Virus record (IMG/VR): IMGVR_UViG_3300032331_000961
Span: 1 to 35,778 of that record
Strand: one strand, 5' to 3'
DNA length: 35,778 bases
Origin: a virus
This document shows, one piece after another, positions 4,770 through 26,807 of the stretch. The notes beneath the pieces are model-generated. The model worked only from the letters and a program-made list of their open reading frames with translations. It did no database searches and was not told the origin of the DNA. Made by a program: the position numbers and the translations under genes. Each line of letters opens with the position of its first letter. Positions within the stretch are counted from its first letter, which is position 1.

Positions 4770-5390
4770 ATGAAATCAGCAGAACTAAAAGTAGGAATTA
4801 AATATGGCGTAATTCCAGCATGGGATTACTCATCACAAGATAAGAAAAATCCTGATCGTGTTCAACGCAATCATGTTGCTAACGCAACTCTTGTATCAAC
4901 TGATAAATATGAATACAAAGTTTATAGATCAGATAAACAAGATGATGCTCAATTTGCGCCAGCAAATAAGGGTTCTCGTAATGTTGGTTATTTAGTTTGT
5001 TCTGACGATTATCTTAATTCAGGACAGGCACAATCAATTATTTATTGGTTGGCTCGACCACAAGATATTGTTGCTGAATACGCAACTCTTGAACCAAAGT
5101 GGGCGTTAAGAGAGCAACAAGAATTACTGGAACGCCAAAAGCATGAAGCGGAACAAAAAGAGCGTGAACGCAAACAACGAGAAGCAAGGGAATATCACGA
5201 AAGAGTTTCTGCTTCTTTAATGGCATCACTTCAAACAATTCTTGGTGATCGTGCTAATCACATAACAGTTGACCAGCGCAATCGCAGAGTTGGAGATAAT
5301 TACATTGAAGTATCAGAGATGAGTATTGATCTCAAAACTATGTCCATATTAATCGAGAAAGTTCTTGAAGCAAAAGACTTGGTGGGTTAA
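4770..5390 (+). CDS. Hypothetical 206-residue protein with charged helix
   Basis: A very good binding site (AAGGAGAATAAATAA) precedes the ATG. The N-terminal 110 residues form a mixed alpha/beta region with Lys-Tyr-Gly-Val and Trp-Asp-Tyr-Ser-Ser motifs. Residues about 110-145 form a highly charged Glu/Arg/Gln/Lys helix, likely coiled coil, followed by a short C-terminal domain. There is no cysteine cluster, signal peptide or membrane segment. It overlaps the next gene by one base (TAATG), so the two are translationally coupled. I do not recognise the family. Position suggests an accessory of the preceding AAA+/VWA module or a general early protein. Confidence 0.7.
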   Translation: MKSAELKVGIKYGVIPAWDYSSQDKKNPDRVQRNHVANATLVSTDKYEYKVYRSDKQDDAQFAPANKGSRNVGYLVCSDDYLNSGQAQSIIYWLARPQDIVAEYATLEPKWALREQQELLERQKHEAEQKERERKQREAREYHERVSASLMASLQTILGDRANHITVDQRNRRVGDNYIEVSEMSIDLKTMSILIEKVLEAKDLVG

Positions 5391-6121
5391 TGACTACACA
5401 AACAATTACTAAAGATAGTTTTTATCTTGAACGATTAAAAACTAAGTTTAATAGTGGTGAAGCCTATTGGAGTGTTGGAGAAGCCAGCACTCTAATTTGG
5501 CAACCACATACTCGCAATAGGTTTGAGTTATTAACTCAATCTAAATTAGTTGATATAACTTTTGATGAACAGACCTACAAAGGTTTTCAATTAATAACTA
5601 TTGGGTTTAATTATGAGTTCAGAACAGTTTTGGACTTAACTGGAAATACAACCGATAGTTATTTGGCTGACGATCAAATTGGTGGATACATGAATGATGT
5701 TAGATCATTTGTTTATTACGAAAGTATTTCTTACGAGATTGGTGGCGTTGGAGATAGCCAACAAAACTTACAATGGTTGGGTAGTGGTGCTTCACTTTAT
5801 ATGTATGGCGGTGATACTGACCCAAATAAAATGATTAAAAAATGCCAAAAGAAATTAGATTTATTTTCACAGATTTTAGATGTGAAAGATGAATTGATTT
5901 CTATTACTGATGAACGGATTGGTTCATATGACGCAAAAAATCCTTACAACATTAATGTTGGAGATCAGGTGTTTATTCAGGCACATGGTCGTTTGCGTAA
6001 AGGCAAGATCATATCTACAACTGGTAGCCGATTTAATGTTGCTTACCTAACTCCTTCAAATCACAATGATTTGAAATATAAAACACTTAGATTGGATTGT
6101 TTGTGGCTACCAAATCCATAA
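5390..6121 (+). CDS. Hypothetical 243-residue protein, possible C-terminal SH3/KOW-like fold
   Basis: The start codon overlaps the stop of 4770-5390 (TAATG). Most of the protein is an unrecognised alpha/beta region with many aromatic residues. The last 55 residues, opening with a Val-Gly-Asp-Gln-Val-Phe turn and containing Gly-Arg-Leu-Arg-Lys-Gly-Lys-Ile, resemble the small beta-barrel (SH3/KOW/Tudor-like) pattern often used to bind nucleic acid or peptides. That reading is inference from pattern only. The 3' end overlaps the HNH gene if the latter starts at 6097. Confidence 0.65.
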   Translation: MTTQTITKDSFYLERLKTKFNSGEAYWSVGEASTLIWQPHTRNRFELLTQSKLVDITFDEQTYKGFQLITIGFNYEFRTVLDLTGNTTDSYLADDQIGGYMNDVRSFVYYESISYEIGGVGDSQQNLQWLGSGASLYMYGGDTDPNKMIKKCQKKLDLFSQILDVKDELISITDERIGSYDAKNPYNINVGDQVFIQAHGRLRKGKIISTTGSRFNVAYLTPSNHNDLKYKTLRLDCLWLPNP

Positions 6122-6711
6122 CTAAATCAAAAAAAACCAAAATGTGTATTGGTTGTTTTACTGATTTACCTTTTAATCGGTTTAATAAACATACGCAAGG
6201 TAAATACAAACTTAGGGCAAGGTGTAAATCTTGCTTTGCCCTAATGCGTAAAGGTTCAGCAAAACGCATGGCAGAAAAAAAAGAATTACACGCTAAAGGT
6301 AAAAGGCGTTGTAGTTATTGTCGCAAAATTAAACCAGTATCTAAATATCAACCTAAACTCCACGCAAGCGGTAATAGGGGCTATGAAGGTGCGTGTAAGC
6401 CATGTGTATCTATCAGACAAGCCGAGAACCACAAACAAAACCACAAAAAAGTTAGGGAGTTTGTATTTAATTATTTATTACAAAATCCTTGTATTGATTG
6501 TGGTGAAACAAATGTATTGGCTTTGGAGTTTGACCATTTACATAGTAAAAAGTTTAATATCGGAACTGCGGTTGGAAACAACTTACTTTCCACAAAAATT
6601 AAATCAGAAATAAAAAAGTGTGTAATTAGATGCTCTAGTTGCCACCGAATTAAAACTCATCAAGAACAAAATAGTTGGAGATACCGACTTGTTATGGAAA
6701 GGAGTGCTTAA
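6097..6711 (+). CDS. HNH endonuclease with N-terminal zinc ribbons
   Basis: This is an HNH-type nuclease of up to 204 residues. The C-terminal half shows CIDCG (C-x2-C), then LEFDHL with the catalytic-loop His, an Asn-rich stretch, and CSSCHRIKTH, which completes the zinc-binding HNH core. The N-terminal half holds two further C-x2-C pairs (CIGC/CKSC and CSYC/CKPC), typical zinc fingers for DNA binding. The start is uncertain: TTG 6097, GTG 6103 and ATG 6142 are in frame, and the first overlaps the upstream gene by 25 nt. It may be a free-standing homing endonuclease or serve packaging or recombination. The AT-rich composition matches its neighbours. Confidence 0.85.
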   Translation: MFVATKSITKSKKTKMCIGCFTDLPFNRFNKHTQGKYKLRARCKSCFALMRKGSAKRMAEKKELHAKGKRRCSYCRKIKPVSKYQPKLHASGNRGYEGACKPCVSIRQAENHKQNHKKVREFVFNYLLQNPCIDCGETNVLALEFDHLHSKKFNIGTAVGNNLLSTKIKSEIKKCVIRCSSCHRIKTHQEQNSWRYRLVMERSA

Positions 6712-6870
6712 ATGAAATCAAAGACTTATTACCGAGTTCGAACTGCGGTGCGTATTCTATTTTGGAGTGCGTTCTTGGCTGGAACTTACTACTTAGCAAC
6801 TCACATTAATTGGGTGGGAGATCATTACTGCTTTGGAACTTTTGATGAGTGTTATTTTGGTGGTAAGTAA
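6712..6870 (+). CDS. 52-residue single-pass membrane microprotein
   Basis: The ATG directly follows the stop of the HNH gene and has GGAAAGGAG upstream, a strong binding site. Residues about 13-34 form one hydrophobic segment preceded by Arg/Lys residues, which suggests an N-in topology. The outer part has two cysteines (Cys-Phe-Gly and Cys-Tyr-Phe) that could form a disulfide. Function is unknown. A holin-like or superinfection-immunity role is possible but not supported by homology. The stop overlaps the next start (TAATG). Confidence 0.55.
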   Translation: MKSKTYYRVRTAVRILFWSAFLAGTYYLATHINWVGDHYCFGTFDECYFGGK

Positions 6871-7034
6871 TGTATTGCCACTATTGCTCTAAAAAGGGAA
6901 TTGATCTTGTATTACCTAACTTATTAAGAACTAATCAAGAGATTATTATGAACTCTATTATAGTTTGTGAAAGTCATAAGGAGTTAGGAATAAAACAATT
7001 AACAAAAGAAAAAATATATAAAGGGGGTAAATAA
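6870..7034 (+). CDS. 54-residue zinc-ribbon-like microprotein
   Basis: It starts at the TAATG overlap with the previous gene. The sequence begins MYCHYC, a C-x2-C knuckle, and a later Cys-Glu-Ser-His offers a second ligand pair (C-x2-H). Its 3' end contains AAAGGGGGT, the binding site of the next gene, so translation is coupled. No family is recognised. It is one of a set of small metal-binding-looking proteins in this arm. Confidence 0.5.
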   Translation: MYCHYCSKKGIDLVLPNLLRTNQEIIMNSIIVCESHKELGIKQLTKEKIYKGGK

Positions 7035-7211
7035 ATGGGTTATGTAGAGATTGTTAGGAGAGTTCAAGATCACGAATTAGATACTTGCGATCAATGTAAT
7101 CAACAAGGCGTTCGAGAGAACGGCAAAACAATTACTGATAACTATTCACAAGATATTCTTTGGTTCTGCTACAACTGCGTAGAAGCACAAAAGAGATCAC
7201 TCTCCCGATAA
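7035..7211 (+). CDS. 58-residue zinc-ribbon-like microprotein
   Basis: It starts directly after the previous stop, with AAAGGGGG as binding site. Two knuckles, CDQC (residues 18-21) and CYNC (45-48), form a four-cysteine zinc-ribbon pattern with 23 residues between the pairs. The C-terminus is basic. It is the last gene before a 168-bp intergenic region with a promoter candidate, so it probably ends the first rightward transcript. Its role is unknown. Proteins of this shape often bind nucleic acid or RNA polymerase. Confidence 0.6.
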   Translation: MGYVEIVRRVQDHELDTCDQCNQQGVRENGKTITDNYSQDILWFCYNCVEAQKRSLSR

Positions 7212-7270
7212 CTTAGAATTGTTGGGTAGGCGTTAACACAAGATTTGTCGGGGTTCTTTCATTCCCCACT

Positions 7271-7307
7271 CCTTTCACTTGTGAAGGGCGGTCAAGACTT
7301 TTAATAT
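7271..7307 (+). promoter_or_regulatory. Promoter candidate with palindrome over the -35
   Basis: TTGTGA (7279-7284) and TAATAT (7302-7307) are separated by 17 bp, a good sigma-70/SigA-type pair. An imperfect palindrome CCTTTCAC-TT-GTGAAGGG (7271-7288) covers the -35, as an operator or activator site would. Transcription would start near 7314 and read the sigma-4-like gene at 7380 and the WhiB gene. Confidence 0.5.
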
Positions 7308-7379
7308 CCTTAAATTGCTTTGGATAATAAAACGAGCCGTATCTGCGCCTATTCAACTCCTACTAGATTGGACTAACTA

Positions 7380-7538
7380 ATGTTTAATGAAAATGAAAAG
7401 AAAAAGATAGTTCACCAAAGAATTGCGTATCAAAAATCTTTATCAGAAGTTGCTCGTATGTTTGGAACTTCAAGAATACAGATCAGAAAGATAGAAACAG
7501 AATATCTAAACCAATTAAAGGAGAATACAAATGGCTGA
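7380..7538 (+). CDS. 52-residue sigma-70 region 4.2-like HTH protein
   Basis: Residues about 20-48 read as a helix-turn-helix closely matching sigma-70 region 4.2: LSEVARMFGTSRIQIRKIE follows the family pattern LxEVxxxFxVTRxRIRxIE, then a Leu-rich end (YLNQLKE). No other sigma region is present, so it cannot act as a full sigma factor. A stand-alone region 4 could bind the RNA polymerase beta flap, promoter -35 DNA, or a WhiB-like protein; WhiB proteins are known to bind region 4 of the housekeeping sigma factor. It follows the promoter candidate at 7271-7307 and overlaps the next gene by 8 nt. A generic small HTH repressor is the alternative. Confidence 0.6.
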   Translation: MFNENEKKKIVHQRIAYQKSLSEVARMFGTSRIQIRKIETEYLNQLKENTNG

Positions 7539-7731
7539 TGATTTACTTGATGAAAGTTTATTTGATGAAGTGTTCGATACTGAACCAGTTTGTAATTGTG
7601 ATTGCGGTTGTGAAGTTCCAGTAATGGGTCAATGCGTTGATTGCGGTAGTGATACTGGGCATCAAAACAACAATGGATTGCCTAAATATGATTACTTAAA
7701 TGAATTATTTACTACAAAGGAGAACCAATGA
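7531..7731 (+). CDS. Acidic Cys-rich 66-residue protein
   Basis: The binding site AAAGGAG lies 9 nt before the ATG. The first 18 residues are acidic (Asp-Asp-Leu-Leu-Asp-Glu). The centre holds six cysteines, C-x-C-x-C-x3-C reading CNCDCGC and then CVDC, plus a His, enough for one or two zinc or Fe-S sites. It sits between the sigma-4-like and WhiB-like genes in an overlapping operon, so a part in transcription control is a fair guess. No family is recognised. It overlaps the next gene by four bases (ATGA). Confidence 0.6.
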   Translation: MADDLLDESLFDEVFDTEPVCNCDCGCEVPVMGQCVDCGSDTGHQNNNGLPKYDYLNELFTTKENQ

Positions 7732-8039
7732 ACCAAGAACAATCAGATTTAATTAAATCTATTAATTTTGCGAACGAGTTTATTAAAATTGTTCGTGGAT
7801 TTAAGGTTGACCAAGATCGTAAAGATAGTTTGCCCCAAGAAGTTAAAGAGTATTTAGCCAATGAACATCTAAACAAAATGATTTCAGATCAAAACTTAGA
7901 ACCTGAAATGTTGGTTTGGGGTTTGCTTCACATGATTGAAATACTCTTAAATGTTGCTGAATTAGAACCAACTGATCTAGTTGAAATTATGGATAAGTTT
8001 GTTGAACAAATATCTAATAGTAATGGAGATCAAACATGA
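7728..8039 (+). CDS. Hypothetical acidic helical 103-residue protein
   Basis: ATGA overlaps join it to both neighbours, and AAAGGAG gives a clear binding site. The protein is predicted all-helical, acidic, without cysteines, with a Leu/Met/Ile-rich middle (MLVWGLLHMIEILLNV, about residues 61-76) that looks like a buried helix and not a membrane span. I do not recognise it. As part of the sigma-4/Cys-rich/WhiB cluster it may be a protein-protein partner there. Confidence 0.6.
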   Translation: MNQEQSDLIKSINFANEFIKIVRGFKVDQDRKDSLPQEVKEYLANEHLNKMISDQNLEPEMLVWGLLHMIEILLNVAELEPTDLVEIMDKFVEQISNSNGDQT

Positions 8040-8356
8040 CTAGACCAAAACACTTAACAATGGCTAAACCAAGAAAAGTTGGTAAGCCAGTTGAACTTAA
8101 TACTCCAACACCACGCAATATAAATGATGCGCCATGCCAAACAGTTGACCCTGAAACCTTTTTTCCTGACCCAACTGATCTTGCTGGTATTGAAAAAGCC
8201 AAAACTCTTTGTGGTAATTGCGATCAAGAAATTAAAACTAAGTGTTTATCTTTCGCACTATCTAACAAAATCCATTACGGAATATGGGGTGGATTAACTG
8301 AGATTGAACGCAAAAGTGTTCTCCGCAAACAATATAGGGGTGGTATCAATGACTAA
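8036..8356 (+). CDS. WhiB-like Fe-S transcription regulator
   Basis: WhiB family proteins carry a 4Fe-4S cluster and regulate transcription by binding region 4 of the primary sigma factor; they are essentially restricted to actinobacteria and their phages. Four cysteines are present (C34, C59, C62, C70), followed by Ala-Leu and the turn GIWGG (82-86) and a basic C-terminus. The spacing between the last two cysteines is x7, whereas the usual motif is C-x2-C-x5-C, so the loop is two residues longer. It overlaps its neighbours at both ends. A second atypical WhiB lies at 26484-26807 on the other strand. Confidence 0.85.
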   Translation: MTRPKHLTMAKPRKVGKPVELNTPTPRNINDAPCQTVDPETFFPDPTDLAGIEKAKTLCGNCDQEIKTKCLSFALSNKIHYGIWGGLTEIERKSVLRKQYRGGIND

Positions 8357-8495
8357 ATGTGATTTATGTTATGAACCAATTAATACAAAAACTTGGTTAA
8401 CAACTTGGGATAGCGATATGGAACTAACTCTTAATGTATGTAAATGGTGTAATCCAAGTGAGTTCAAATTATCGTCAGAAGTAAATAATGGTTAA
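8349..8495 (+). CDS. 48-residue zinc-ribbon-like microprotein
   Basis: I place the start at ATG 8349, which has AGGGGTGG 6-13 nt upstream; an in-frame ATG at 8304 lies deep in the WhiB gene and has no site. The protein shows CDLC (residues 4-7) and CKWC (31-34), a four-cysteine ribbon. It overlaps WhiB by 8 nt and the next gene by 8 nt. Function is unknown. Confidence 0.6.
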   Translation: MTKCDLCYEPINTKTWLTTWDSDMELTLNVCKWCNPSEFKLSSEVNNG

Positions 8496-8958
8496 TACAT
8501 TTATTCCTTATCCTGATTTTACTAAGTCTGCTAAGGCTCTTGATTACAGGCGATTAGGTAAGCAACGAGTTGAAGCGTGGCAAATACTTAGGGCATTAAT
8601 GGGAATTAGTCAGGGCTGGCGTAATCACCCTGCTACAAAGATGTGGCGTGGGCATGAGAAGGCTTTGTGTGAATATGGAATTGCGATCTGCCAAGAATGG
8701 GTAGATCGTGGCTACAAAGACACCATGTTGCCCCAGTTCGTAGCACTACACCCAACCTTTCCTGATACTGGATTACCTTTTTGGTTTGGTAATCAATTAA
8801 TTCACCAATCGCATCAAAGTAATTTAATGCGTAAAGACCCAAACTATTATGTATTTAATGTGCCTATATTTTTACCTTATCTATGGGCTGATACAGAAAC
8901 TCAAACTACAAAGTGGGGAACTAAACCTAATGAAACTAAGCAGAAAGTTGTTAAATAA
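8488..8958 (+). CDS. Pyrimidine-dimer glycosylase-like (MSMEG_6728/Pyr_excise family)
   Basis: The 156-residue protein has the hallmark N-terminus of the MSMEG_6728-like, Pyr_excise-related family: FIPYPDF, ALDYRRLGKQRVE, a QILRAL helix, and GWRNHPATKMWRGHE at about 41-56. Related T4 endonuclease V and its homologues cut the glycosidic bond at UV photoproducts, the catalytic amine being at the N-terminus. For the MSMEG_6728 branch this activity is inferred, not shown. A DNA-repair role would suit a phage of sunlit waters. It overlaps the previous microprotein gene by 8 nt and precedes the HTH gene by 2 nt. Confidence 0.75.
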   Translation: MVNTFIPYPDFTKSAKALDYRRLGKQRVEAWQILRALMGISQGWRNHPATKMWRGHEKALCEYGIAICQEWVDRGYKDTMLPQFVALHPTFPDTGLPFWFGNQLIHQSHQSNLMRKDPNYYVFNVPIFLPYLWADTETQTTKWGTKPNETKQKVVK

Positions 8959-8960
8959 AC

Positions 8961-9149
8961 ATGAGCGAATGGCTAACAAATACAGATATAGCAGAGATAA
9001 CTGGGTTGAAGTTAGAAACTCTACACAGTTATCTAAGTCGAAACACCCTTCCCAAGCCCGACAAATACATGGGGAGAACTCCAGTTTGGAAATCAGAAAC
9101 AATAAAAGAATGGGCATCAAATCGAGAAACGGAGATAACTAATGAATAA
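8961..9149 (+). CDS. Excisionase/MerR-type HTH protein
   Basis: This 62-residue protein is almost entirely a winged-helix DNA-binding domain of the AlpA/Xis type: LTNTDIAEITGLKLETLHSY is the helix-turn-helix, followed by GRTPVWKSETIKEW, the wing and final helix. Such proteins act as recombination directionality factors or small repressors. With a tyrosine integrase 1 kb downstream, an excisionase role is reasonable but not proved. It overlaps the next gene by 8 nt. Confidence 0.7.
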   Translation: MSEWLTNTDIAEITGLKLETLHSYLSRNTLPKPDKYMGRTPVWKSETIKEWASNRETEITNE

Positions 9150-9303
9150 AGATCAAGCAATTAAAGAAATGTTAAATCTACGCCAAGTATGGGAACATGA
9201 ACAACAATATACACAAGCAGACGGCAATTCAGATTACGCAACTTACAAGGGTGCTATTAATGCGATTGATGTTGCGATTAAAATTGTAAAGGAGATAAAT
9301 TAA
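9142..9303 (+). CDS. Hypothetical 53-residue helical protein
   Basis: It begins at an ATG with GGAGAT 8 nt upstream, overlapping the HTH gene by 8 nt, and its stop overlaps the next start (TAATG). The protein is predicted as two helices, with Gln-Gln-Tyr and Gly-Ala-Ile-Asn-Ala-Ile-Asp-Val stretches, similar in look to small phage proteins of unknown role. No metal ligands or membrane segment are visible. Confidence 0.5.
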   Translation: MNKDQAIKEMLNLRQVWEHEQQYTQADGNSDYATYKGAINAIDVAIKIVKEIN

Positions 9304-9839
9304 TGGGTTTAGATATGTATTTGTATGCTGAAAAGTATATGGGTAATAACATAGATCAAACTGGTTCTTATGCTGAAATTAAAAATCTTGCTGGATTAAA
9401 AGATTTACCAACTCCTGATTTTTCTAATGTAATTGTTAAATCAATGGTTGGTTATTGGCGCAAGGCAAACGCTATTCATGGTTGGATTGTTGAAAAGTGT
9501 GGCAAAGGCGTTGATGAGTGCCAAGTAATCTATTTAGGTTCTGATGATTTGATAAATCTAAGGAATGATTGTATTAAGGCTTTGGCTAATCCTGATCGTG
9601 AATATCAGATTGAAAATCCAAAAGTTTTATATCAATTATGCGATTACTTAAACAGTTTAGAAACTGAACTTAATCCAGCAACTTATGAAAACCCACTTCC
9701 ACCAGTTGAAGGGTTTTTCTTTGGTGGTAATGATCTAACCGATTATTACTATCACAAATTGGAATACACAGTTGATTTGATTACTTCTCTACTAGAGAGC
9801 GATCAAGAACTGAGTTTTAGTTATCAAGCCAGTTGGTAG
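9303..9839 (+). CDS. Conserved phage-type protein (MGLDMYL family)
   Basis: The 178-residue protein opens with MGLDMYLYAEKY and carries VGYWRKANAIHGWIVEKC (about 50-67). I remember this pairing from a widespread uncharacterised family in phages and bacterial genomes; the function is not established. The remaining sequence is acidic alpha/beta, with FFFGGNDLTDYYY near the C-terminus. GGAGATAAAT precedes the start, which overlaps the previous stop. No signal peptide or membrane segment is present. Confidence 0.65.
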   Translation: MGLDMYLYAEKYMGNNIDQTGSYAEIKNLAGLKDLPTPDFSNVIVKSMVGYWRKANAIHGWIVEKCGKGVDECQVIYLGSDDLINLRNDCIKALANPDREYQIENPKVLYQLCDYLNSLETELNPATYENPLPPVEGFFFGGNDLTDYYYHKLEYTVDLITSLLESDQELSFSYQASW

Positions 9840-9853
9840 AAGGGAAACTTACA

Positions 9854-9979
9854 ATGGATATTCTTTGTAATAATTGCGGATACGAAGTTGATGAAGTAAA
9901 TCCAAAAACTAAGTTCTGCCAAACTTGCCACAATGCTTATGATCTAGGTTTTACTGACGGCACAAACCAACCGAACTAA
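9854..9979 (+). CDS. 41-residue zinc-ribbon-like microprotein
   Basis: ATG 9854 follows AGAAGGGAAACTTACA, with GGGAA as binding site. CNNC (5-8) and CQTC (22-25) form a compact four-cysteine ribbon with 13 residues between the pairs. The stop codon lies inside the first AACTAACTT repeat. It is the last gene before the terminator at 10090-10126. Confidence 0.55.
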   Translation: MDILCNNCGYEVDEVNPKTKFCQTCHNAYDLGFTDGTNQPN

Positions 9980-10049
9980 CTTTATTCAAATCCAGAAAAG
10001 TTAGTTCACGCTCAACAACTAACTTGTCTGGTGTTCCACCAAGTTAGTT
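9974..10049. repeat. Two nested AACTAACTT/AAGTTAGTT hairpins
   Basis: AACTAACTT (9974-9982) pairs with AAGTTAGTT (9998-10006), and AACTAACTT (10017-10025) with AAGTTAGTT (10041-10049). The second encloses a TTC mini-hairpin, TGGTG-TTC-CACCA, at 10029-10041. Both repeat families seen in the first 1.2 kb therefore meet here, just ahead of the integrase. Confidence 0.7.
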
Positions 10050-14836: not shown

Positions 14837-16342
14837 CTACTCTTCTATAGATTGTTGAATAATTTTTGTTACAGTGTCTTCTTTTAAAGCATCAGGTAGT
14901 TCTCTAAGAGCCTGTGCTCTGTCGCCAAAGATTGCAGAAAGGACTCCTCCAGAACTTTGACGTTCTGCAGTGATACGAACAAACTCTCTGTTTTCTTCTA
15001 GTTCTTTTAAGTTACCCACAAGTTTAAACAAACGATCAATTTCTTGAGATACATTGGGATCAGCATACCCGCCATTCATTTCTTCTGCAAAACGCATAAA
15101 AGCCACTCTTTGGCCTTGCATTTCAATGATTGCGTTAAGTAAAGCCTTAAGTTGATCTTTAGTCTTTACTTCGACAGGAAGGTTGAAAGCACAACTGTTG
15201 TCAGGCTTGAAGGCAGGACAGTTCGAGGCAACAAAGCAAGTGTTACATTGACGAAGTGACGAATGCTGATTGTTAATGATCGGAACATCTTTAAGAACAT
15301 CTTTTCCTTCTTCATCGGTTTCAACTATTGTCTTCATTTTATACCCAAAGACAGGTAAGTTTTGAACCTCTAAAGGGTCTCTTTGTATAACTTCATTCGC
15401 AGAAGTTTTCCGCACATCTACAGCACTGTTATCAGAAGAGGGCAAATCAAATCCCATTAAACCTGTTAACAACTCATCGCTGTTATCAGATACTTTCTCT
15501 TCTTTACCGCCATTAATGATGTGAAAATTTGGACTTTTTTTATCCATAGACTCCTCTAATCGTTTGTAAGACCATACAGCAACTTTAGTTGCTTCAAGGG
15601 TACCATCCTGGACAAACTCTAAATAGTCTAGTCCAGCCTTTTCTACAATTGGTTTGTATCGTGGTCTTGCTTGATCCTTCATTCTCTTTGGGTAACGAAC
15701 TAACTTAGTTCCATCCCAGATAATAGTTTCACCTCTTCGCATGGGGGATAACCAAGACAATGTGCTGGCTGTGGCAAATGGTATCTGTCTCAGATTGTCT
15801 GGCTTAGCACACCCAAGGGCGTGATAAGTGGTTCCAAACTGCTTAGAGTAACTCCTTGTAACTGCTGCTAAATTAGTTACTGACTCAATTTCAGAATAAG
15901 GAATTACTACATTTGTATACTTTTCAGAAATATCTTTAAGGTTTAACAAGCCATACTCTTCATGCCATACCACCCATAAATTTGGGTCATTACTAAAAAA
16001 GGGGCGTTGTTTTTCTACCCAATCTAATCCTAAAATAAGTGAATCAAACTCTTGAAAAGCCTCTGCTCTGTCAGCATTGTTAACTAAGAACTCTTGATAG
16101 TCTGCGGCTATTTCGAGTAGTTCATCTTTAGATAGTCCTGCTTTGTCCGCTTGTGCTGCGCCAGATTCAATATAGACTTTAGTTTCTGGAGTAAAATGTT
16201 CGCTAATAAGCCAGAGTTTAGTCTTTGGTAAACCACGTTTCCTAAGACCCCAATAGTTGAGTCCCATCGACTCAACTTTCTGACCTTCTAACAAGGTGCG
16301 GTTTGAACCAACCTCAGTTCCTGAAAAGATTAATTTAGTCAT
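14837..16342 (-). CDS. Possible TGT/DpdA-like TIM-barrel protein with C-terminal Cys cluster
   Basis: The 501-residue protein has an N-terminal domain of about 290 residues whose order of motifs resembles the tRNA-guanine transglycosylase/DpdA fold: ESGAAQA near 58, VVWHEEYG near 123, YHALGCAKPD near 173 and STLSWLSPMRRGE near 193. DpdA enzymes place 7-deazaguanines in DNA. The Asp expected just before the SxxW segment is not evident, so catalysis is doubtful. A linker follows, then C-x2-C-x5-C-x8-C (reading CNTC, NCPAF, SCAF) as a likely metal site, and a helical C-terminus. It overlaps the HAD gene by 8 nt. No preQ0 pathway gene is visible. I am sure of the gene, not of the family. Confidence 0.45.
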   Translation of the reverse strand: MTKLIFSGTEVGSNRTLLEGQKVESMGLNYWGLRKRGLPKTKLWLISEHFTPETKVYIESGAAQADKAGLSKDELLEIAADYQEFLVNNADRAEAFQEFDSLILGLDWVEKQRPFFSNDPNLWVVWHEEYGLLNLKDISEKYTNVVIPYSEIESVTNLAAVTRSYSKQFGTTYHALGCAKPDNLRQIPFATASTLSWLSPMRRGETIIWDGTKLVRYPKRMKDQARPRYKPIVEKAGLDYLEFVQDGTLEATKVAVWSYKRLEESMDKKSPNFHIINGGKEEKVSDNSDELLTGLMGFDLPSSDNSAVDVRKTSANEVIQRDPLEVQNLPVFGYKMKTIVETDEEGKDVLKDVPIINNQHSSLRQCNTCFVASNCPAFKPDNSCAFNLPVEVKTKDQLKALLNAIIEMQGQRVAFMRFAEEMNGGYADPNVSQEIDRLFKLVGNLKELEENREFVRITAERQSSGGVLSAIFGDRAQALRELPDALKEDTVTKIIQQSIEE

Positions 16343-25654: not shown

Positions 25655-26484
25655 CAGTCTCCAATTAATGCACAGGACTTGCATCCTTTAGGATCAACAT
25701 TACAGGCAGGTGAAACACCTGCATCAACTGCATCTATAACTTTCTGTGCAGCGTTAAAAATTCTTTCTACAATATAGTAATCTGATTTTATAGTGAACTC
25801 TTTGTAGTCTTGATCAGCCTTTAATTCATAAATAAAAACCATTTCATTTGGAGCATCATTACCAAACTGTCTCTTGGCTAACTCTAAGTACATCTGACCT
25901 TGAAGTAAATGAGATCTAAATGGACGACGTACATTTTTCCAAGCCTTTGTTAAATCTCCATCAGCATCGTAAAGCAACTCTGGTGCTTCAAATCTAAGGG
26001 TGCCTGCACCAATAGATTTAATTTCAATTAAGCAATCTTCTCCAAGACCTTTAACCCAGCCATCGGCATGACCGTGAATACGCAGTGGCTCATGGACAAG
26101 GGGTACTTCTTTATACTCGTGTGCATTTGTATCTACTTCTTTAGATACTTCCCAGCCACTACCGTTTAGACCTTCCCAATAACCGTAAAGAACACCCATA
26201 TCTGAAAGTCGATTTTGCCACTTAGCATGGATGTAATGCCCTTCATCAAAGATATTTTGAAGACGAAGATTAGGTTTGTCTCTCTTTGCCTTGCCACCAT
26301 TTAATAGGTAGTAAGCATACTTATGACACCAATCAGACTTAATAATTTCAGATGGGTGTAGTACATCTGTCCTTCTATCTGACTCTGGTTGTCTCATTAG
26401 GTGGCGTTCTATTTCACCTATTAATCTAGTGTCAGCCTTCTTAGTATCAAGGAACTTGTGTAAATCATTTTTAGGTATTGCCAT
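25654..26484 (-). CDS. Cas4/RecB-like PD-(D/E)xK exonuclease with Fe-S cysteines
   Basis: Nuclease core: H83, D141 in HGHADGWV, E154 and K156 in LIEIKS, then a Gln helix (LLQGQMYLELA). Cysteines at 53 and at 261, 268 and 271 match the one-plus-three arrangement that binds 4Fe-4S in Cas4 and AddB. Such enzymes resect DNA ends to feed RecA-like recombination. The 276-residue length is usual for phage members. No Cas1/Cas2 or CRISPR repeats accompany it, so a replication/recombination role is preferred. It is joined to WhiB by a one-base overlap. Confidence 0.88.
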   Translation of the reverse strand: MAIPKNDLHKFLDTKKADTRLIGEIERHLMRQPESDRRTDVLHPSEIIKSDWCHKYAYYLLNGGKAKRDKPNLRLQNIFDEGHYIHAKWQNRLSDMGVLYGYWEGLNGSGWEVSKEVDTNAHEYKEVPLVHEPLRIHGHADGWVKGLGEDCLIEIKSIGAGTLRFEAPELLYDADGDLTKAWKNVRRPFRSHLLQGQMYLELAKRQFGNDAPNEMVFIYELKADQDYKEFTIKSDYYIVERIFNAAQKVIDAVDAGVSPACNVDPKGCKSCALIGD

Positions 26485-26807
26485 TAGTGTTCCTTATCTG
26501 TACTGAAAATAAATTCTTTTAGGGACATTTTCTTTTTATATTTCTTTTGCCACTTTCTTGTTAAAGCATTGCGTTCTCTATGGCTTAACCCACCCCAGAT
26601 TCCATGAGGTTCATTTCTTTTAACGGCATCCCACAAACACTCGGCACGTACTGGACAATTGTTTTTTCCTGTTTCACCAAAACAAAATGATTTGGCTTTA
26701 TCAGCAATACTTTTGTACTGCTCTTTATCACGAGGAGGGTAGAAGATGTCGGTGTCTTGTCCTGAACATCTTGCTTTGTATCTCCAGGCGTACTCTGGTT
26801 CGTCCAT
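26484..26807 (-). CDS. WhiB-like Fe-S transcription regulator (second copy)
   Basis: Four cysteines (C14, C42, C51, C57), CPVRAEC, a Leu-Trp-Asp-Ala helix and GIWGG (69-73), then a basic tail, define a WhiB-like protein of 107 residues. The second and third cysteines are separated by x8 where the family normally has x2, while the last pair keeps x5. The first copy (8036-8356) deviates at the other interval. Being inside the replication operon, it may act on middle or late transcription or on the host sigma factor. Confidence 0.87.
   Translation of the reverse strand: MDEPEYAWRYKARCSGQDTDIFYPPRDKEQYKSIADKAKSFCFGETGKNNCPVRAECLWDAVKRNEPHGIWGGLSHRERNALTRKWQKKYKKKMSLKEFIFSTDKEH

Follow-up and report, generated by a model that had tools for sequence, protein, structure and literature searches.

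A stand-alone sigma region 4.2-type microprotein and a conserved structured RNA beside a WhiB-like gene in a probable actinophage

Background

What does a 52-residue phage protein do if it resembles one piece of a sigma factor and is encoded three genes ahead of a WhiB-like gene? The original prediction, made from the same DNA, saw in it a decoy for WhiB or a replacement for sigma region 4. The analysis presented here leans, at about an even chance, towards a small DNA-binding regulator consisting of the portion of sigma region 4 that reads DNA. Just upstream lies a conserved structured RNA. Papers cited by PMC number are represented by excerpts, and what is attributed to them holds for those excerpts.

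The window, which is the whole stretch of DNA that was analysed, is a virus record 35,778 bases long with a G+C content of 38%. Besides the genes in Table 1 it holds a ribonucleotide reductase, a second WhiB and a gene of the DNA polymerase I type. The freshwater actinobacteria rank with the most abundant bacteria of lakes, and phage control of them is little known. Positions 5000-10000 of the window have no match among isolate phages (blastn); the window reductase shares 77.7% identity with the enzyme of Actinomycetia phage DSL-LC01, a phage from a lake in China. Since WhiB is treated as a marker of actinophages (PMC6802176, PMC10202952), the window is probably an actinophage. The hosts of the viruses that carry the microprotein seem to be water-dwelling actinobacteria.

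Table 1 Features of the microprotein locus, in window coordinates
Feature	Position	Strand	Start	Evidence
58-aa CxxC protein directly 5' of the RNA	7035..7211	+		alignment
Structured noncoding RNA	7220..7358	+		covariation, covariance models R1 and R2, folding z
52-aa sigma-70 region 4.2-type HTH microprotein	7380..7538	+	ATG	Pfam, PDB profiles, dN/dS, AlphaFold2
66-aa Cys-rich protein	7531..7731	+		no Pfam family; synteny
o103, 103-aa protein	7728..8039	+		no Pfam family above cut-off; alignment, synteny
WhiB-like (Wbl) protein, 106 aa	8036..8356	+		Pfam Whib, alignment

The microprotein

The original prediction described a protein of 52 residues with the pattern EV..F..SR..IRKIE, and the open reading frame in Table 1 encodes exactly that 52-mer. 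The pattern had been read as a helix-turn-helix (HTH) of the sigma region 4.2 type, and profile searches agree. Sigma70_r4 is the sole Pfam family above its cut-off (26.7 bits against 24.1, E 4e-6), with HTH_28 next at 16.8 of 25 bits. The best family is that of sigma-70 region 4, not an unrelated repressor family.

Searches of the PDB give the same picture. With a profile built from 12 close relatives, RpoD/SigA comes out on top. When 26 diverse members are used instead, the best E-values go to RpoH (2.6e-7) and RpoD (9.7e-7), and of the best 60 among 81 PDB matches 59 belong to sigma factors or chimeras of them, the sole other entry being an archaeal regulator. Taken member by member, Sigma70_r4 matches 23 of the 26 at E<=1, the most of any family among the 25 of 33 families listed. 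There are also weak matches to HTH families of the transposase/resolvase type, namely HTH_28 in 17 members, HTH_Tnp_1 in 9 and HTH_7 in 7. The NCBIfam models that match the most members are again sigma families (sigma70-ECF and RpoD_Cterm, 18/26 each); their scores in the window protein lie far under the cut-offs, as would be expected of a fragment.

The gene is under purifying selection: its dN/dS is 0.17 (45 pairs, 10 close sequences), and the +1 frame gives 1.18. It is also kept in distant phages at 27-52% identity. Both facts mean that the reading frame is more than a chance one. Six columns of the 26-row alignment are invariant: R14, V24, A25, R32, R36 and E39. The last three fall in the recognition helix, and the residues between them vary. 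This is the pattern expected if DNA binding stays while specificity drifts; the contact positions used here are those that we take to touch DNA in sigma-70. Judged by its sequence, the microprotein is a stand-alone version of the known sigma region 4.2.

Fold and missing parts

An AlphaFold2 model based on the 26 diverse sequences predicts an HTH fold with helices at 4-16, 21-28 and 32-51 (mean pLDDT 93.9, pTM 0.74). The model superimposes on sigma region 4 in 1rp3 (Z 8.1, 1.1 A over 49 residues) and 1ku3 (Z 7.3, 1.2 A over 48). Mitoribosome chains reach Z 8.2, and mitoribosome and spliceosome chains equal sigma in Z, so the fold by itself is not specific. Foldseek's best match is 7bca, the plasmid DNA-binding HTH protein ArdK; for the diverse-sequence model the best E is 0.085, with none at <=0.001. 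An earlier model from 12 close sequences (67-96% identical to the first) had two long helices and mixed structure matches, with nothing at E<=0.001 in Foldseek, and was discarded.

Sigma region 4 has four helices. The Sigma70_r4 match starts at profile position 9 and spans 9-50 of 50, and this, together with the three-helix model, is why the first helix seems to be missing. Sigma region 2 is not part of the microprotein, which at 52 aa consists of the HTH only, and a dimerisation part is not evident in the bare 52-mer.

Distribution and synteny

The microprotein family is found on 52 viral contigs besides the window. Half of these form the window clade (26 contigs, with half of the gene only in L024), and the other 26 hold a diverged copy, found by way of the RNA and of the genes next to it. 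The copy on L073 scores E 0.15 in the close-relative profile scan and is recognised by its place and by a broad profile that includes L073 itself. A second search, with the L145 copy as query, returned 8 contigs, all already in the set.

The original prediction proposed to look for conserved co-occurrence in related phages, and it is there: o103 and WhiB lie downstream of the microprotein in 52/52 contigs. In the window each of the four genes from microprotein to WhiB overlaps the next, with 8 bases shared between the microprotein gene and the 66-aa gene. In some contigs of the distant clade no 66-aa gene was detected ahead of o103, which follows the microprotein with or without it.

The microprotein is missing from 8 of the 34 loci examined. 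L055 and L079 begin downstream of its position, and L112-L117 cover the region without it. L113 keeps the o103-linked WhiB. The close relatives L114-L117 have neither the microprotein nor the o103-linked WhiB, and the RNA was not found in their whole records either; this joint absence may be one event in close relatives.

Outside this set, a tblastn search of INPHARED with the microprotein gave 5 records with a best E of 0.1, two of them annotated as sigma factors. No o103 was found in INPHARED, and no microprotein relatives in GTDB genome contigs. Five named actinophage records, searched whole and with no positive control among them, gave one weak microprotein fragment (E 0.016) and the RNA in 0/5.

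Three distant contigs carry a second small ORF of 49-52 aa directly before the microprotein (L080 3704-3853, L081 106-255, L082 37-195), which looks HTH-like by eye.

The structured RNA

The RNA is closed by a 13-bp helix, P1, in which 7221-7233 pairs with 7345-7357. Inside it, P2 pairs 7237-7242 with 7278-7283, and P5 pairs 7288-7291 with 7337-7340, leaving a variable arm between 7292 and 7336. The sequence CCUU in the P2 loop could also pair with AAGG at 7284-7287. The complement is present in 33/40 loops against 12.3 expected, and absent in 7/40, which makes a pseudoknot possible.

The RNA is more conserved than its flanks. Mean pairwise identity over 12 aligned phages is 93.5% for 7220-7358, against 88.1% for the 58-aa gene, 83.8% for the 21 bases 3' of the RNA and 85.4% for the microprotein gene. 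The stretch 7219-7364 has a folding z of -2.98. In a set of six folded RNAs, five range from -2.59 to -3.85, and the one on L125 has -1.58.

Covariation is found in two alignments. In the one of 19 sequences, 14 of 23 pairs are changed on both sides (43 cells), 97.7% of cells are paired, and 0/500 shuffles reach any of five measures. The larger one holds 40 sequences and was fitted to the model, so that its pair counts lean towards the structure: 203 of 903 cells are changed on both sides and 95.3% are paired. Shuffled controls give 53.9 such cells, and slid ones 26-37. The count of pairs changed on both sides is reached by 16/500 shuffles, and the other four measures by 0. The helix GCNN/NNGU is paired in 40/40, with three pair types at one variable position and four at the other, positions that were free in one RNA search pattern and fixed in another.

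All 40 sources given for the larger alignment matched. It leaves out L129 (E 4.8e-5), L126 (cut by the contig end), and, as near-duplicates or close relatives, L133, L151, L155, L156, L158 and most window-clade contigs. Three rows were dropped: L049, a 19-mer chance match inside a coding gene, and L147 and L159, whose matches lie in coding DNA (R2 E 0.2).

Occurrence and identity of the RNA

The RNA lies upstream of the microprotein in 24 of the 26 window-clade contigs, and L022 and L024 start too near the gene to tell. Among the 13 distant contigs found by o103 it is upstream in 12 (in L081 in part), and L082 is cut. In L084 another gene sits between RNA and microprotein.

Elsewhere the context changes. 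In L123, L135, L143 and L126 the RNA adjoins the 3' end of a reductase-like gene on the opposite strand; in L125 and L133 it adjoins an opposite-strand 194-aa gene with the reductase-like gene behind it (reductase-like genes named by inspection). As these genes read the opposite way, the RNA is not their leader. A self-standing regulatory RNA or a ribozyme would suit these changing gene contexts better than the leader of one gene.

Thirty viral records were chosen for holding the RNA and scanned whole; what this shows is that the RNA is single-copy in each of them (the G015 match is partial). WhiB is present in 25 of these records, the microprotein was detected in 13 and TROVE in 2. The RNA has also been seen in L131, L139, L141, L144, L146, L148, L150 and L152, among others, in addition to L123, L125, L133, L135 and L143 above.

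Known families do not account for it. At E<=5, no Rfam 15 family matches the window stretch. Another 12 loci were searched at E<=1; there the RNA is overlapped only by two sub-threshold Phe_leader matches, both on L125, and nowhere in these 13 places does a match at the RNA exceed its gathering score. A pattern search of GTDB contigs gave no match, and blastn with four RNA queries found no convincing match among isolates. Like Rfam 15 families the RNA is compact and structured, yet it has no family match.

Two identities were considered and rejected. A Y RNA would call for TROVE/Ro60, which is found in the 2 records above (some of the 30 are fragments) and not in the window. A tRNA-linked RNA would call for tRNAs, which are present in just 2 of 18 loci scanned and are untyped in one of the two.

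With one copy per record, a near-fixed core and no place in Rfam 15, the RNA looks like a new class of actinophage RNA and is a candidate for one. Such RNAs have often proved to be ribozymes, riboswitches or regulators. We rank this finding above the microprotein. Neither such an RNA nor a phage protein consisting of sigma region 4 alone was found in the literature, preprints and most subscription papers aside.

On L131, two tRNAs, a sub-threshold match to the Y RNA-like YrlA, a TROVE/Ro60-type gene and the RNA lie close together within 4875-7832, the TROVE gene upstream of the RNA.

The WhiB neighbour

The original prediction placed a WhiB-like gene downstream in the same overlapping operon. 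This is correct, with Pfam Whib at 64.6 bits against 23.6. The protein has cysteines at 34, 59, 62 and 70, phenylalanines at 42-43, and a GIWGG motif with W84. The last two cysteines are spaced x7, where the usual WhiB spacing is x5.

The complex of M. tuberculosis WhiB3 with sigma-A is abolished when F31, F32 or W76 of WhiB3 is replaced by alanine, and equally when H516 in region 4 of sigma-A is (PMC10245118). Since the FF pair and the tryptophan are kept in the phage WhiB, sigma-A of the host would be a plausible target.

The original prediction knew of no described phage system of this kind. In cultured Nanopelagicales phages a WhiB-like gene occurs together with a sigma-70 factor (PMC10202952), so there is precedent for a phage with WhiB and a sigma-type gene. 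A stand-alone region 4 is not described in the excerpted text of that paper.

The promoter candidate proposed for the operon was discarded. The region 6800-8500 has 4 promoter-like sites on both strands, against a mean of 7.6 in shuffles, which is no better than chance, and the single + strand site (7301-7328) falls within the variable arm of the RNA.

In the WhiB of one subclade within the distant clade (L124, L130, L145 and L149) the motif reads GIFGG, with phenylalanine for the tryptophan that WhiB3 needs to bind sigma-A.

Possible functions of the microprotein

The regulator reading works as follows. The phage would use the DNA-reading part of sigma-70 region 4 by itself, as a small regulator of transcription. 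Its recognition helix, at about residues 32-39, would contact DNA, presumably at a site unlike the host -35 element. The microprotein would most likely act as a dimer or beside RNA polymerase, switching phage or host promoters. WhiB would then be a second, separate regulator, probably acting, as Wbl proteins usually do, on the sigma-A of the host.

An alternative is that the microprotein stands in for region 4, docking on the beta flap, displacing or replacing region 4 of sigma-A and redirecting polymerase, much as a split sigma (SigO/RsoA, gp55/gp33) or T4 gp33 does. We consider this unlikely, though it has points in its favour. Its sequence is nearest to region 4 of RpoH and RpoD/SigA. T4 gp33 is a sigma-4 mimic on the beta flap that forms a split sigma with gp55 (PMC2988020), and the operon is shared with WhiB, whose class of proteins has sigma region 4 as its place of action (PMC6282962). 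What speaks against it is the first helix, which seems to be lacking, and a region 2 partner that was not found: Sigma70_r2 (PF04542) is in 0/13 microprotein-bearing records at E<=1, several of which are fragments, and a gp55-like protein would escape this search.

Another candidate role is that of protein partner of the RNA in a small RNP. The YlxM family is sigma region 4-like, and the UPF0122 protein 1xsv (106 aa), which we take to be a YlxM relative, is among the structural matches with Z 7.2. YlxM is reported to bind the small RNA of SRP (PMC8546722), which offers a precedent. Wherever the upstream sequence can be read, the RNA is there, in 24/24 window-clade and 12/12 distant contigs (one cut), and in L114-L117 both are absent between the same flanking genes. 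Conversely, 17/30 RNA-bearing records have no detected microprotein, L084 has its intervening gene, and shared descent explains the linkage equally well. This role is distinctly unlikely.

A wider form of this idea joins the two into one control module of freshwater actinophages. A single-copy, pseudoknotted RNA, ancient across unrelated phages, would be read or chaperoned by an RNA- or polymerase-binding microprotein that became its partner later, in one clade. We hold this to be improbable.

Very improbable is the decoy of the original prediction, in which the microprotein titrates WhiB. WhiB is a neighbour in every one of the 52 contigs, and L114-L117 lack both genes; o103 is just as constant downstream. 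In sigma-A, H516 is followed by P517. At the place of this pair, the ninth and tenth residues after the conserved E, none of the 26 microprotein members has H or P, and the stretch of S. aureus sigma-A that aligns to the microprotein ends on H opposite E48. Moreover, L113, which lacks the microprotein, has WhiB, and so do 12 of the 17 RNA-bearing records with no detected microprotein. The missing contact residue and this separate occurrence led us to reject the decoy as the main reading.

An accessory HTH for recombination, of transposase/resolvase type or a directionality factor, would fit the HTH_28, HTH_Tnp_1 and HTH_7 matches of some members and an integrase-like gene ~3 kb downstream (by inspection), but Sigma70_r4 outranks these families both by its score in the window protein and by the number of members matched, and another gene, 8961-9149, has excisionase-type matches. 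This reading too is very improbable.

Comparison with known systems

The microprotein can be compared with several known proteins. With region 4.2 of RpoH, RpoD and SigA it shares the HTH sequence and the recognition-helix pattern R...R..E. It differs in standing alone at 52 aa, without region 2 and the H516-P517 site of WhiB binding, and seemingly without the first region 4 helix.

In the T4 gp33/gp55 system, too, a protein of the phage takes a region 4-like role on its own. According to the excerpts, gp33 has no discernible sigma sequence similarity and no DNA sequence recognition (PMC2988020). The microprotein by contrast has clear sigma similarity, and among the 13 records a region 2 partner was not found.

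YlxM (UPF0122) is also a small HTH protein, and it binds structured RNA (PMC8546722). It is longer, and the families listed for the 26 members (25 of 33) do not include UPF0122.

WhiB-TM4 of mycobacteriophage TM4 is, like the WhiB here, a Wbl regulator carried by a phage, and it competes with host WhiB2; the excerpts on TM4 mention no sigma-like microprotein or RNA (PMC6282962).

A sigma region 4 trimmed to three helices and maintained by selection across a broad group of phages offers a minimal, testable means of learning what this region can do by itself.

Further observations on the window

The second WhiB-like gene, at 26484-26807 (-), is a different one, 31% identical to that at 8036. Two WhiB genes are present in 11/13 microprotein-bearing records.

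A queuine tRNA-ribosyltransferase-like gene lies at 14840-16342 (-) (phrog_887, E 3e-55). The gene at 8488-8958 (+) encodes a pyrimidine dimer DNA glycosylase (Pfam Pyr_excise, 78.6 bits). L001 and L006 match just a short stretch of it, which means that this gene comes and goes among close relatives.
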